From NCBI RefSeq assembly GCF_019704555.1, contig NZ_AP024745.1, positions 373,501-437,500 of the forward strand: a DNA stretch of 64,000 bases, in the 5' to 3' direction. The translations under genes and the position numbers were made by a program. Each line of letters opens with the position of its first letter. The first letter of the stretch is position 1. This DNA comes from Actinoplanes sp. L3-i22 (GTDB lineage: Bacteria > Actinomycetota > Actinomycetes > Mycobacteriales > Micromonosporaceae). The notes beneath the pieces were generated by a model. That model worked only from the letters and a program-made list of their open reading frames with translations. It was not told the origin of the DNA and ran no database searches. This document shows, piece by piece, positions 10,523-17,430 of this stretch.

Positions 10523-12892
10523 GTGATCCGTGAACGGGCCTACCCCGTCGACCCCTGGCACATCCGGGAGACCCGGCTGGACCTGGACCTGCTGGCCCAG
10601 TCCGAGTCGGTGTTCGCTCTCTCGAACGGCCATATCGGGATACGCGGAAATCTGGACGAGGGCGAGCCGCACGGCCTGCCCGGGACCTATCTGAACTCGT
10701 TCTACGAGCTGCGGCCGCTGCCGCACGCCGAGGGTGGGTACGGATTCCCCGAGTCGGGCCAGACCATGGTCAACGTGACCAACGCGAAGCTGATGCGCCT
10801 GCTGGTCGACGACGAGCCGTTCGACGTCCGCTACGGCGAGCTCCGCTCGCACGAGCGGGTGCTCGACATGCGGGCCGGCACGCTGGAGCGGACCGTGGAG
10901 TGGGTCTCCCCGTCCGGGCAGGGCGTGCGGCTGCGCACGGTGCGCCTGGTCTCGTTCACCCAGCGGGCCGTGGTCGGCATGCTCTACGAGGTCGAGCCGC
11001 TGGACGGCGCGGCCCGGCTGATCCTGCAGTCCGAGCTGGTGGCGAACGAGCAGCTGCCGCCGAGCAGCAAGGACCCGCGGGTGGCGGCCGTGCTGGCCCA
11101 GCCGCTGCAGGCCGAGGAGATGCTGGAGCAGCGCTCCGGCGGCCTGCTGGTGCACCGCACCAAGGTCAGTGACCTGCGGATGGCCGCGGCCATGGAGCAC
11201 CTGGTGGAGACGCCGGGCCGGCACGCGATCACCACCGAGGGGCACGGCGACTGGCTGCGTACCACGGTGGCCTGCCGCCTGGAGCCGGGGCAGAAGCTGC
11301 GCGTGGTCAAGCTGGCGGCCTACGGCTGGTCCAGCGTCCGCTCGCTGCCGGGCCTGCGGGACCAGGTCGGCGCGGCGCTGGCCAGCGCCCGCCTGGACGG
11401 CTGGGACGGCCTGGTCCAGCAGCAGCGGGAGTACCTGGACGCGTTCTGGGACCACTCCGACGTCCGCGTCGAGGGCGACCCGGAGGTGCAGCAGGCGGTC
11501 CGGTTCGGCCTGTTCCACACGCTGCAGGCCGGCGCCCGGGCGGAGAAGCGCCCGATCGGCTCCAAGGGCCTGACCGGGCCGGGGTACGACGGCCACACGT
11601 TCTGGGACGCCGAGACGTTCGTGCTCCCGGCGCTCACCTACACCCAGCCCTCGGCGGCGGCGGACGTGCTGCGCTGGCGGCACTCGACGCTCGACCTGGC
11701 CCGGGAGCGCGCCCAGACGCTGGGGCTGCAGGGCGCCGCGTTCCCGTGGCGGACCATCCGTGGCCAGGAGTGCTCCGGGTACTGGCCGGCCGGCACCGCG
11801 GGCTTCCACATCGCCGCGGACATCGCCGACGCGGTCCGGCGGTACGTGCAGGCCACCGGCGACCTCGACTTCGAGCGTGAGGTCGGCCTGGAGCTGCTGG
11901 TGGAGACGGCGCGGCTGTGGCGCTCGCTGGGTCATCACGACCGGCACGGGCGGTTCCACATCGACGGCGTCACCGGGCCGGACGAGTACACCGCGATCGT
12001 GAACGACAACATCTACACGAACCTGATGGCGCAGCAGAACTTCATGACCGCGGTGGACGCCTGCAAGCGGCACCCGGACCTGGCGCGCCGGTTCGGGGTC
12101 GACGACGAGGAGGCGGCCTCCTGGCGGGACGCGGCGGCGGCCGTGCACATCCCGTACGACAAGGAGCTCGGCGTCCATCAGCAGTGCGAGGGCTTCACCC
12201 GGCTCCAGGAGTGGGACTTCGAGAACACCCCGCCGGAGGGTTACCCGCTGCTGCTGAACTACCCGTACTTCGATCTGTACCGCAAGCAGGTGGTCAAGCA
12301 GGCCGACCTGGTGATGGCGATGTACATCCGCGGTGACGCGTTCACCCCGGAGGAGAAGGTCCGGAACTTCGCGTACTACGACGCGCGGACCGTCCGGGAC
12401 TCGTCGCTCTCCGCCTGCATCCAGGCCGTGATGGCGGCCGAGACCGGGCACCTCGAGCTGGCCCACGACTATCTGGGCGAGGCCGCCCTGATGGACCTGC
12501 ACGACCTGCACCAGAACGCGCGGGACGGCGTGCACGTGGCGTCGCTGGCCGGCTCGTGGATCGCGCTGGTCGCCGGCCTGGGCGGGATGCGGGACTTCAA
12601 CGGCCAGCTGTCGTTCGCGCCGCGGCTGCCCAGCCGGATCAACAACCTGGACTTCTCGCTGCTCTGGCACGGCCTGCGCCTGCGGGTCAACGTCACCGCC
12701 GACGAGGTGACCTACTCCCTGCGCAACGGGGGCGGCTCGGCGCGGCTCACCCTGCTGCACCACGGCAAGGAGATCGAGGTCACCCAGGTGCGCCCGGTGT
12801 CCATGTCGATCCCGTCGGCCGGCCCGGTGGGCCCGGCGCCGACCCAGCCGGCCGGCCGCGCGCCGGTGCGGCGGGCCACGCCGCACCACTGA
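10523..12892 (+). CDS. Glycoside hydrolase family 65 phosphorylase (maltose/trehalose phosphorylase type)
   Basis: 789 aa, full GH65 size with N-terminal beta-sandwich, (alpha/alpha)6 catalytic barrel and C-terminal sheet. The general acid is Glu488 in TGPDEYTAIVNDN, and the Ser-rich phosphate site is RDSSLS at 625-630, which favours phosphorolysis over hydrolysis. Inverting phosphorylases release beta-glucose 1-phosphate, which the upstream mutase would consume. Maltose, trehalose and kojibiose are possible substrates; sequence inspection does not decide. No signal peptide. A strong terminator follows. Confidence 0.92.
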   Translation: MIRERAYPVDPWHIRETRLDLDLLAQSESVFALSNGHIGIRGNLDEGEPHGLPGTYLNSFYELRPLPHAEGGYGFPESGQTMVNVTNAKLMRLLVDDEPFDVRYGELRSHERVLDMRAGTLERTVEWVSPSGQGVRLRTVRLVSFTQRAVVGMLYEVEPLDGAARLILQSELVANEQLPPSSKDPRVAAVLAQPLQAEEMLEQRSGGLLVHRTKVSDLRMAAAMEHLVETPGRHAITTEGHGDWLRTTVACRLEPGQKLRVVKLAAYGWSSVRSLPGLRDQVGAALASARLDGWDGLVQQQREYLDAFWDHSDVRVEGDPEVQQAVRFGLFHTLQAGARAEKRPIGSKGLTGPGYDGHTFWDAETFVLPALTYTQPSAAADVLRWRHSTLDLARERAQTLGLQGAAFPWRTIRGQECSGYWPAGTAGFHIAADIADAVRRYVQATGDLDFEREVGLELLVETARLWRSLGHHDRHGRFHIDGVTGPDEYTAIVNDNIYTNLMAQQNFMTAVDACKRHPDLARRFGVDDEEAASWRDAAAAVHIPYDKELGVHQQCEGFTRLQEWDFENTPPEGYPLLLNYPYFDLYRKQVVKQADLVMAMYIRGDAFTPEEKVRNFAYYDARTVRDSSLSACIQAVMAAETGHLELAHDYLGEAALMDLHDLHQNARDGVHVASLAGSWIALVAGLGGMRDFNGQLSFAPRLPSRINNLDFSLLWHGLRLRVNVTADEVTYSLRNGGGSARLTLLHHGKEIEVTQVRPVSMSIPSAGPVGPAPTQPAGRAPVRRATPHH

Positions 12893-12910
12893 TTCTCCGG
12901 TATCAACGAG

Positions 12911-12945
12911 AAAGCCCCCGGTCCGCGAAGGACCGGGGGCTTTTT
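12911..12945. terminator. Bidirectional intrinsic terminator
   Basis: Perfect 14-bp stem AAAGCCCCCGGTCC (12911-12924) / GGACCGGGGGCTTT (12930-12943), loop GCGAA, followed by T residues. It sits between two convergent genes and can serve both. Confidence 0.95.
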
Positions 12946-12961
12946 CATGTTCGGTGCGGCG

Positions 12962-13996: not shown

Positions 13997-14014
13997 CAAC
14001 AATCCTTCCTAGTC

Positions 14015-14129
14015 ACCGCCGACCGAGTTAGCTGACGGGTTCGGGACGGAAGCTATCCCTACCGCGTAATGCGGATTCACCCCAACTACCTGGTTCCCCG
14101 GTTCGCCTTTCGACGATTGGGCGGCGGCC
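14015..14129 (-). ncRNA. c-di-AMP riboswitch (ydaO-yuaA type), minus copy
   Basis: Read on the minus strand it contains GGGGAACCA, GGGGTGAATCCGC (14083-14071), then GTAGGGA...TCCCG and ACCCGTCAGCTAAC close to the 3' end, all conserved blocks of the ydaO family. Outer stem: CCGCC near 14128-14121 with GGCGG at 14020-14016. It ends about 20 nt before the start of the secreted coiled-coil gene. In actinobacteria this RNA class binds cyclic di-AMP and lowers expression of wall-remodelling genes. Confidence 0.93.
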
Positions 14130-14346
14130 TGCCGGCAACTCGGGGGCGGTGCCGTCCTGGCAGGACCGGCGGCCAGTTTACCTGAGATATCACTCGGCAT
14201 CAGGGTCAGGAAAACCACCAAAGCCGTTACCTTCCGACGACGTTCCGTAATGGCGTGACGACTCGTGACCGGGCCGTTGCAATAAGTGTGAGAACTGTCG
14301 ATTCCTCGATCGAGTGGGTATGGTCGGTTCCGGTTCCCGCCCGGGA

Positions 14347-14465
14347 ACCGCCGCCTAATCGCAACAACCAGCGAGCCGGGGATCCACATTTCTTCCGGGG
14401 TGAATCCGCGTCAGCGGTAGGGATTTCCTTCGTCCCGAACCCGTCAGCTAACCCGGCCGGCGGCC
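14347..14465 (+). ncRNA. c-di-AMP riboswitch (ydaO-yuaA type), plus copy
   Basis: Contains GGGGATCCA, GGGGTGAATCCGC (14397-14409), GTAGGGA...TCCCG and ACCCGTCAGCTAAC (about 14439-14452), with CCGCC (5') and GGCGG (3') able to close the outer stem. It ends 18 nt before the GTG of the downstream secreted protein. It is a near mirror image of the minus copy across about 220 bp of promoter DNA. Confidence 0.93.
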
Positions 14466-14483
14466 GACGGAAGGAAGCAGCCA

Positions 14484-15534: not shown

Positions 15535-15571
15535 AAAAAGAGCCCCGGGCCACTGGCCCGGGGCTCTTTTT
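15535..15571. terminator. Bidirectional intrinsic terminator
   Basis: Perfect 17-bp stem AAAAAGAGCCCCGGGCC (15535-15551) / GGCCCGGGGCTCTTTTT (15555-15571) with an ACT loop; A and T tracts on the two sides make it work in both directions for the convergent flanking genes. Confidence 0.96.
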
Positions 15572-15580
15572 CGACGATGC

Positions 15581-16354
15581 CTACTTCTGCATGTACGCCT
15601 CGTACTGCTGGAGGATCTCCTCGGTCGGCCCGTCGCCGCGGATCAGGCCGGACTCCAGCCAGATGACCCGCTCGCAGGTGTCCCGGATCGACTGCTCGCT
15701 GTGGCTGACCAGGAACACCGTGCCGGCCTCCTCGCGCAGCTCGCGAACCCGCTCCTCGCTGCGGCGGCGGAACTTCGCGTCACCGGTACCGAGCGCCTCG
15801 TCGATCAGCAGCACGTCGTGCTTCTTGGCCGCGGCGATCGAGAAGCGCAGCCGGGCCTGCATGCCGGACGAGTACGTCCGCATCGGGAGCGAGGCGAAGT
15901 CGCCGCGCTCGTTGATGCCCGAGAACGCGATGATCTCGTCTTTCTTCTGCTTCACGTCGGCCGGCGACATGCCCATGGCCAGGCAGCCGAGCTCGACGTT
16001 GCGCTCGCCGGGCAGGTCGTTCATCAGCGCGGCGTTGACGCCGAGCAGCGACGGCTGGCCGGCCGCGTAGATCGCGCCCTTGGACACCGGCAGCAGGCCG
16101 GCGACCGCGCGCAGCAGGGTCGACTTGCCCGAGCCGTTGCTGCCGATCAGGCCGATCGCCTCGCCCTTGTAGGCCACGAAGCTGACGCCCTTGACCGCGT
16201 GCACCTCGCGCACATTGGCCGAGTTGGTCTTGGTGACCAGCCGCTTGAAAGCCGAGAGCGGGCTGGTCTGGTTCGCGCCGATCGCCCCGACGATCTTGTA
16301 CGTGATGTGGGCGTCGTCGCAGATGACGGTCGGTTCGCGTTCGATGTCAGCCAC
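15581..16354 (-). CDS. Polysaccharide/teichoic-acid ABC exporter, ATPase subunit
   Basis: 257 aa ATPase of the RfbE/TagH/Wzt class. Walker A GSNGSGKST at 71-79, signature YSSGMQARLRFSIA, Walker B DVLLIDEALGTGD and H-loop VSHSEQS. No C-terminal carbohydrate-binding domain, so it is the short form, as in the mycobacterial galactan exporter. GTG start overlaps the last 8 bp of the permease gene. With that permease it should export a lipid-linked glycan or teichoic-acid precursor; which polymer is not shown. Confidence 0.9.
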   Translation of the reverse strand: MADIEREPTVICDDAHITYKIVGAIGANQTSPLSAFKRLVTKTNSANVREVHAVKGVSFVAYKGEAIGLIGSNGSGKSTLLRAVAGLLPVSKGAIYAAGQPSLLGVNAALMNDLPGERNVELGCLAMGMSPADVKQKKDEIIAFSGINERGDFASLPMRTYSSGMQARLRFSIAAAKKHDVLLIDEALGTGDAKFRRRSEERVRELREEAGTVFLVSHSEQSIRDTCERVIWLESGLIRGDGPTEEILQQYEAYMQK

Positions 16355-17243
16355 GGCCGTAAACCTTTTCTCCGCGCCAGAAGTAGAGGAAGCCGCCGAC
16401 GCTCACGATCGCGGTCCAGATGACGGCCTCGGTCCACAGCAGGCCGGGGGTGCCGGCCAGCTTGACGTCCTCCATCAGCGAGTGCCGGAACAGCTCGATG
16501 AAGACCAGCATCGGGTTCGCCTCGATCAGGTGAAGCTTCCAGCCGTGCAGGTGGTCGGTGAAGCGGGTCACCGGGTAGAGGACGGCCGAGCCGTACATCC
16601 AGAAACGCATGATGAACGGGATCAGCTGCTTGATGTCCCGCAGCTTCGAGCCGAGCCGCGCGAAGAACAGGGCCAGCCCGGTGTTGAAGAGGGCCAGCAG
16701 GAACATCGCCGGGAGGATCAGCAGCCACTCGACGTTGATCGGCTCGCCGGACATCAGGACGATGACGAGCAGCACGCACATGGCGGTGATGAAGTTGCGG
16801 ATCTCCACGAGGGCGACCGACAGTGGCAGGCTGCCCCGCGGGAAGTGCAGCGCCCGGATGATGCCCAGGTTCGCCGTGATCGCGTTCGCGCCCTGGCCCA
16901 CCACCTGCTGGGTGAATCCGAAGACGAAAACACCGATGCAGAGGTACGCGATGAAGTTGCCGGCGCCGGCACCGGTCCCGATGATGACGCCGAAGATGAT
17001 GTAGTAGACCAGCGCGTTCATGATCGGCGTGACGACCTGCCACAACGTGCCCAGGTTCGTGCTGCCGAGCTGTGAGGTGGTCTTCGCCTTGGCGTGGGCC
17101 GTGATGAAGTGCCGGTAGCCCCAGAGCTGACCGGCGTACTCCAACGGGCTGGCAAGTCGCCCGGAAGAGGCAAGGCCGTGCCGCTGCGCCAACTCCTTGA
17201 GGGGAGTGGCAGGAGCGGTTTCGGCAACCGCTGTCTCTGGCAT
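16347..17243 (-). CDS. Polysaccharide ABC exporter permease (ABC-2 type)
   Basis: 298 aa from ATG 17243 (MPETAVAETAP), which has GGAG 9 nt upstream; an in-frame ATG at 17321 lacks a ribosome site. An N-terminal amphipathic part ends in L-W-G-Y-R-H-F-I-T-A-H-A-K-A-K, followed by six hydrophobic segments (for instance ALVYYIIFGVIIG and LLILPAMFLLALFNTGLALFF), the ABC-2 layout of RfbD/TagG/Wzm permeases. First gene of a two-gene operon with the ATPase; divergent from a TetR regulator. Confidence 0.9.
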   Translation of the reverse strand: MPETAVAETAPATPLKELAQRHGLASSGRLASPLEYAGQLWGYRHFITAHAKAKTTSQLGSTNLGTLWQVVTPIMNALVYYIIFGVIIGTGAGAGNFIAYLCIGVFVFGFTQQVVGQGANAITANLGIIRALHFPRGSLPLSVALVEIRNFITAMCVLLVIVLMSGEPINVEWLLILPAMFLLALFNTGLALFFARLGSKLRDIKQLIPFIMRFWMYGSAVLYPVTRFTDHLHGWKLHLIEANPMLVFIELFRHSLMEDVKLAGTPGLLWTEAVIWTAIVSVGGFLYFWRGEKVYGRG

Positions 17244-17430
17244 GGGGTGGTGCTCCGATCTCGTCTGCCGGTACGAGGCTGCGGACTCCCGTGTTTCGCC
17301 GTCTGGCACAACAAGAAGCATGACAGGCGTCCGCTGACGCCGATGGTACGGGTTCGTATCGACGTCGAGGCAAAGGTATCCGACGTGGCGGCGGAACGCA
17401 ACCGTTACGTCGTAGCGCTATAGTTACCCC

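Follow-up and report, generated by a model that had tools for sequence, protein, structure and literature searches.

The closest described relatives of the locus considered here are leaders of the c-di-AMP riboswitch class in Actinobacteria, and the reports on them differ, with a stop of transcription described for Streptomyces and control of translation for Corynebacterium. In a review of the field, S. coelicolor rpfA, whose leader belongs to the same class, is presented as stopped at transcription (PMC10117811). Reporter constructs placed the control of the C. glutamicum nlpC riboswitch at the level of translation, and a CTCC–GGAG pseudoknot lying over the RBS was suggested (PMC9960051). The same source records that the transcript is lower when the riboswitch is present, regardless of the c-di-AMP level, which counts against purely translational control. 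A further source lists ydaO (group 2) among the riboswitches that occlude the RBS by interdomain docking (PMC10907184), and direct RBS occlusion for the c-di-AMP class is already in print (PMC9960051, PMC10907184). Six ydaO leaders are reported in S. lividans, located ahead of secreted hydrolases and a transglycosylase (PMC8079986), and 77 tandem c-di-AMP riboswitch doublets have been reported (PMC9481103). In a search of the open-licence literature that covered listings and passages, no c-di-AMP riboswitches were found described as a head-to-head pair.

This study characterizes such a pair, which is real, ordinary in its class and unusual in its layout. Each leader belongs to a known family and has the usual kind of target. 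The new parts are the fixed head-to-head layout, an extra 5' hairpin and comparative support for masking of the Shine-Dalgarno (SD) sequence.

Two full-length aptamers in divergent leaders

The window, the whole 64-kb stretch of Actinoplanes sp. L3-i22 DNA that was analysed, was searched with Rfam at gathering cut-offs, yielding two matches, both full-length and both to RF00379 (gathering score 38). The left aptamer, belonging to gene P1, occupies 14002..14133 on the minus strand (91.7 bits, E 3.2e-20), and the right aptamer, belonging to gene P2, occupies 14342..14478 on the plus strand (90.5 bits, E 6.5e-20); each spans model positions 1-134. Scores so far over the cut-off bear out the original prediction of a ydaO-type leader before each gene, and all four conserved blocks that had been named in it are present in the left and the right leader. 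The leaders had also been described as mirroring each other closely along some 220 bp of common promoter DNA, which does not hold: the inverted repeats between the arms (minimum length 12) comprise just 50 nt at 88% and 13 nt at 100%, both inside the aptamers, and a forced alignment of the two arms revealed no clear similarity outside them. Identity between the left and right aptamers is 0.73 in this genome, slightly below the mean of 0.75 against the opposite arms of other genomes, so the two resemble each other as fellow members of an aptamer class would, and not as recent copies.

Eight RF00379 sites were found in the 12.0-Mb single-contig genome. Two of them precede the VldE-like genes of the window, and the other six have NlpC/P60 genes (four) and transglycosylase–LysM genes (two) as their targets. 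The genome encodes one protein with a diadenylate cyclase domain (DAC, PF02457; 98.3 bits), from which c-di-AMP synthesis is predicted, and the organism would accordingly possess a c-di-AMP synthase gene. RF00379 occurs in all 60 genomes sampled from the genus, which were drawn from a larger group, and in 10 of 60 genomes in a wider sample of the phylum.

Paralogous VldE-type proteins encoded by the pair

The left gene, P1 (12962..13996, minus strand), encodes a VldE-type (PF26571) zinc peptidase domain. Its open reading frame opens at a TTG at 14002; the most plausible start is the ATG at 13996-13994, which lies 6 nt past the SD GGAAGGA, and the database copy, P0123, likewise has 344 aa. The right gene, P2 (14484..15521, plus strand), starts with a GTG 7 nt after its SD strand and encodes a paralog of the same architecture. 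The two proteins are 37% identical over 306 aligned columns, in agreement with the predicted divergent genes of like architecture, and both are probably secreted, their N-termini appearing signal-like by eye.

The C-terminal domain has the same fold as VldE (PDB 9flj, 9flm, 9flh), and the precomputed PF26571 label is attached to 120 + 120 homologs among the matches listed, including P0123, the window's own left protein. Pfam scans of both proteins, run with a Pfam set lacking PF26571, gave no match, and NCBIfam returned weak coiled-coil matches alone; the helical part of the proteins matches many unrelated coiled coils. Named homologs in the protein listings are mostly from Actinoplanes. A likeness to RipC/EnvC is weak and was not counted as evidence for a link to FtsEX.

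The zinc ligands of VldE are reported as H301, D308 and H375 (PMC11667670). The corresponding zinc-ligand motif, H..D plus HxH, was found in 172 of 175 proteins, the three misses being L052 (interrupted by Ns), L088 (HG for HP) and L226 (C-terminal extension), and residues H263, D270 and H341 are invariant among 31 aligned proteins. Alanine substitution of D372 inactivates VldE. At the equivalent position, all 57 left-gene proteins have Asp and 56 of the 57 right-gene proteins have Asn, the remaining one being broken by Ns. The notion of a matched pair of putative peptidoglycan hydrolases calls for a caveat at this residue, which is Asp on the left and Asn on the right. Overall, P1 and P2 are probable cell-wall-cutting enzymes (peptidoglycan hydrolases), predicted to act as secreted peptidases.

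Strong hairpins followed by T runs were seen by eye past both genes (12910-12950 and 15535-15575), the second also being preceded by an A run, and a promoter/terminator scan gave partial terminator matches at 12910-12950. These hairpins look like terminators that would make each gene a single-gene unit. The neighbouring genes encode a GH65 family glycoside hydrolase (10523-12892) and, on the other side, an ABC transporter ATPase and an ABC-2 type membrane protein (15581-17321).

Conservation of the head-to-head arrangement

The two genes stand head to head in all 60 sampled genomes of the genus, 59 of which have both aptamers. Regions were compared for 58 genomes, namely the window and 57 others, and both genes with both aptamers were detected head to head by a custom pattern in 54 of these. 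In L052 (G031), Ns break up the right gene, and both aptamers are listed. For L089 (G018) and L091 (G033), the fetched region held another riboswitch of those genomes; an additional look-up showed the complete head-to-head arrangement, with two genes and two aptamers, in G018 and G033, as well as in G017 and G037. In L092 (G021), the right aptamer is absent: the 3' end of the P1 stem comes directly after a promoter-like block and leads into the SD and start codon, and a permissive Rfam scan of the region found the left aptamer alone. The right leader of G021 is a natural aptamer-less variant in which the gene and its SD have been kept.

Elsewhere in the family, G087 alone has the divergent pair among 33 other genera (one genome each, all matches listed). 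Three of these 33 genera carry tandem pairs of RF00379 sites, both members of a pair lying on the same strand; a single one of these sites falls below the cut-off. The sites lie about 1.6-1.8 kb apart, in G063 (C1:1827138/1828954), G081 (C17:46494/48063) and G080 (C62:72428/74079), the last of which includes the below-cut-off site, at 72428; these same-strand pairs are consistent with tandem riboswitch–gene units. Matches to the left gene contain one internal TGA in G024 (C43:47541-48557) and G037 (C63:42935-43957), a possible artefact of the alignment edge close to the start.

Within the genus, the back-to-back pairing appears to be fixed. Whether the layout itself has a function is evenly balanced in our judgement: two independent riboswitch genes could have become neighbours by chance and been co-inherited, a reading that is compatible with the SD masking proposed below and that fits the completeness of each leader alone and the unlinked versions in other genera, whereas retention in all 60 sampled genomes and the slightly greater likeness of the arms within than between genomes speak against it. 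Over 55 pairs, arm-versus-arm likeness is 0.775 within genomes, compared with 0.757 ± 0.003 for shuffled partners (none of 5000 as high). In G029, G030, G040 and G042 (loci L045, L049, L062 and L064), the variable aptamer loop of one arm is identical or almost identical to that of the other. The excess and these loops suggest occasional gene conversion between the inverted aptamers, with lineage-specific composition as a further possible contributor and with the shortest loops matching by chance as well; the window's own pair has no sign of such conversion.

Upstream hairpins and putative promoters

A hairpin-forming stretch, here termed P0, lies directly 5' of the left aptamer at 14128..14164 (minus strand), outside RF00379. 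Its exact pairing is uncertain; CCTGCC..GGCAGG is found in 24 of 57 paired left leaders and the energy fold uses partly other partners. The right P0, CGGTTCCCGCCCGGGAACCG, lies directly 5' of the right aptamer at 14331..14350 (plus strand) and is indicated by conservation, folding and covariation. In many leaders, P0 sits between the aptamer, which it directly adjoins, and a conserved upstream block, for instance GGTAAACT or GGTAGGCT. The 45-nt stretch before the P1 stem has a mean fold z of -1.44 against shuffles (n = 148), compared with 0.14 and -0.22 for the next two stretches upstream, and the last bases before that stem form a helix of at least five pairs (G-U allowed) with upstream bases in 108 of 135 distinct leaders. 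The hairpin's own partners exceed permuted ones with z 8.4 overall, z 4.9 in other genera and z 6.6 in the paired right leaders; covariation within the paired left leaders alone is not significant (151 of 3000 shuffles as high). P0 may protect the 5' end of the mRNA or stack on the P1 stem, a putative role in either case.

Conserved columns among 56 aligned pairs mark two putative promoters. The left one (14175..14203, minus strand) consists of GGTAAACT (14182-14175) and CTGATG (14203-14198), and the right one (14295..14324, plus strand) of CTGTCG (14295-14300) and TATGGT (14319-14324); the right promoter-like block is also kept in G021, where the right aptamer is missing. A scan for the sigma-70 consensus returned no promoter at either putative site, so it is conservation that points to these hexamers as candidate promoter elements. 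A partly conserved block between the two promoters (14226-14251; GTTACC ... CCGTAAT) is a possible shared regulator site.

Complementarity and covariation between the aptamer loop and the SD

In both leaders, the loop of the last aptamer hairpin can pair with the SD. The left loop, CUUCC (14048..14052, minus strand), is complementary to 14005-14009 within the SD GGAAGGA (14003..14009, minus strand), giving 5 bp at -7.4 kcal/mol, and the right loop, UUCCUUC (14425..14431, plus strand), is complementary to the SD strand GAAGGAA (14470..14476, plus strand), giving 7 bp at -10.2 kcal/mol; 4 of 115 aptamers were not parsed in the pairing scan behind these helices. Both anti-SD assignments draw on this complementarity and on covariation across genera.

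For the covariation analysis, 180 distinct aptamer-like strings were collected, unparsable last hairpins being skipped and uncounted, and 20 strings were dropped, leaving 160. By eye, 18 of those 20 look like chance core matches. L125 and L134 have perfect cores and were dropped by the P1 filter; the former (7 bp) would support the pairing and the latter (3 bp) would not. Among the 160 filtered aptamers, 143 can form a loop–SD helix of at least five Watson–Crick pairs, and 149 can form one of at least four pairs that includes GGA, GAG or AGG. The mean helix of all 160 is 6.11, against 5.49 ± 0.06 with permuted partners (z 10.0; none of 2000 shuffles as high). Own partners also beat permuted ones in 54 diverse aptamers (z 7.2; 0 of 2000), in 27 strictly diverse aptamers (mean helix 5.78 versus 4.54 ± 0.20; z 6.3; 0 of 2000), the diverse subsets being one random greedy pick, and in 31 aptamers whose tails lack GGAAG (5.23 versus 4.13 ± 0.17; z 6.5; 0 of 2000). 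The same holds for 37 leaders of unlinked genes from other genera (z 6.0; 0 of 3000).

When the test is confined to the paired leaders, covariation falls short of strict significance (570 of 3000 shuffles as high on the left, 70 of 3000 on the right), because both strands are nearly constant there. The signal stems from the comparison of genera and gene classes, and the permutation statistic ignores relatedness. As an SD partner, the P6 loop is weak and not significant (33 of 500 shuffles as high). Tables of single bases around the SD were too uneven for use. In the crystallised ydaO RNA, whose sequence is printed in PMC5393176, the same loop matches its own 3' tail over 8 bp; that source mentions a stable pseudoknot in a passage that leaves the strands unnamed.

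Proposed masking of the SD and alternative modes of control

The start codon was taken as the first in-frame start at least 22 nt past the aptamer core, a rule that sets the lower bound of the distances. So defined, the core-to-start distance is at most 35 nt in 151 genes (median 29), of which L240 at least rests on a false core match, and the ATG and GTG of the window lie within about 6 nt of the end of the RF00379 model. Such spacing leaves no room for a terminator, and no intrinsic terminator was found between aptamer and start in either leader at the scan's threshold.

Together with the aptamers, the identity of the genes, the conservation of the pair, the loop–SD covariation and the missing aptamer in G021, the closeness of SD and start supports an account based on SD masking. 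We consider it probable that the locus is a bidirectional c-di-AMP-gated wall-hydrolase unit in which each SD is masked by the loop of the bound aptamer. Each of the two divergent mRNAs would present a short hairpin first, then the aptamer, with the SD and start codon immediately after. Upon binding c-di-AMP, the aptamer would expose the loop of its last hairpin, which would pair with the SD just beyond the closing stem P1, forming a loop–SD pseudoknot. With its SD paired, the mRNA would not allow the ribosome to start; at low c-di-AMP, the SD would be free and the VldE-type peptidases would be made. Docking of the loop on the SD by the c-di-AMP-bound aptamer, with translation blocked, is the most likely mode of action; the response to the ligand, its OFF direction, the translational level and the transcript ends are all predictions, and a link of the locus to turgor is conjectural. 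Among the observations that count against SD masking, the left loop–SD helix of the window has only 5 bp, and a pseudoknot-free fold pairs the right SD with another loop. Minimum-energy folding of both leaders gave results no better than those for shuffled sequence and is uninformative for a pseudoknot.

Transcription attenuation, in which bound c-di-AMP halts RNA polymerase inside the leader and loop–SD pairing is a by-product of aptamer folding, appears unlikely, with precedents that give it some weight. Premature termination upon c-di-AMP binding is described for S. coelicolor rpfA (PMC10117811), the prototype from B. subtilis works through a terminator, and the S. coelicolor leader is also reported to lack a canonical terminator (PMC9960051), so the missing terminator in the present leaders does not exclude attenuation. 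Against it stand the short distances to the assigned starts, the two leaders in which the scan found no terminator-like site, and the translation-level control described in C. glutamicum (PMC9960051).

We give very little credence to an ordinary nested fold that hides the SD, perhaps in the ligand-free state, which would result in an ON switch or in none. The partner would be, for example, UUUCUUCCG (14389-14397, plus strand), another stretch resembling an anti-SD, which lies in the right leader's P4 loop and takes this role in the minimum-energy fold of that leader. However, the fold of the left leader leaves the SD unpaired, neither leader beats shuffled sequence, and covariation of the P4 loop with the tail is weak and not significant (112 of 2000 shuffles as high; 152 leaders).

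An extension of the SD-masking account, which we offer as speculative, is that two switches of different strength, with helices of 5 bp and 7 bp in the window, act around one divergent promoter region. They would provide staggered thresholds for peptidases with different active sites, gene conversion would keep their sensing alike, and the pair would be selected as a unit.

Origin of the pair

The protein tree comprises 93 rows, representing 15 genus loci, G087 and unlinked genes; the remaining genus loci were omitted on account of size and L052 on account of its Ns. The paired genes fall into two clades of 16 rows each, the left genes with 100/99 and the right genes with 100/96 support. The right-type group has 29 rows, all with an aptamer by the custom pattern, and the left-type group has 26, with an aptamer in 22 and none in four. 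Both groups contain unlinked members from other genera that are chromosomally far apart (e.g., G079, G062, G069, G091 and G095), and other paralogs, mostly without a riboswitch, branch between the two groups. Placing the paired genes in one clade costs 186 log-likelihood units and is rejected (p-AU 2e-8).

This tree is most simply explained if two old paralogs, each already carrying a riboswitch, became head-to-head neighbours a single time, before the genus and the G087 lineage separated. A very ancient head-to-head duplication, later separated in nearly all other genera, would be a less simple alternative. A single duplication with inversion that copied gene and riboswitch jointly, the origin first put forward, would suit the divergent, paralogous genes and their similar aptamers, but is highly improbable, as the tree and the AU test contradict it: neither paired set has the other as its closest relative, and riboswitch-bearing copies of both gene types are found unlinked in other genera.

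Comparison with known systems

The covariation between loop and SD across genera provides comparative support for direct SD masking and points to specific bases. The fixed pair, the natural absence of one aptamer and the Asp/Asn split between the paralogs supply comparisons for how c-di-AMP may restrain wall cutting in filamentous actinobacteria.

The leaders share with RF00379 (ydaO/yuaA) at large their full-length matches, their conserved blocks and wall-hydrolase targets as in Streptomyces (PMC8079986, PMC10117811); they differ in the extra 5' hairpin outside the model, in an SD only a few nucleotides from the P1 stem and in the presence of two copies head to head. Unlike a terminator-type ydaO riboswitch, they have no intrinsic terminator between aptamer and start codon. 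At the protein level, the C-terminal domain resembles that of VldE (Spr1875), a pneumococcal L,D-endopeptidase, in its fold, in the zinc ligands H, D and H and in the equivalents of R, H and H. It is accompanied here by long N-terminal helices, whereas VldE is designated a LysM-domain protein in its PDB record, and the right-hand protein has N at the position of D372.

The S. coelicolor rpfA riboswitch has the same aptamer class and likewise governs a secreted wall hydrolase, but its action is reported as transcription termination (PMC10117811). The C. glutamicum nlpC riboswitch also belongs to the c-di-AMP class, precedes a wall peptidase gene and is described without a canonical terminator; it differs in its NlpC/P60 target, in being a single leader and in a pseudoknot that the source puts forward as a suggestion without comparative support (PMC9960051). 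As in the interdomain-docking riboswitches (PMC10907184), the ligand-bound aptamer is predicted to dock on the RBS region, here by loop–SD complementarity, with the difference that the docking strand includes the SD itself and covaries across genera. The tandem c-di-AMP doublets (PMC9481103) also place two RF00379 aptamers close together, but theirs are arranged serially on one RNA, whereas those of the present locus belong to two divergent RNAs.
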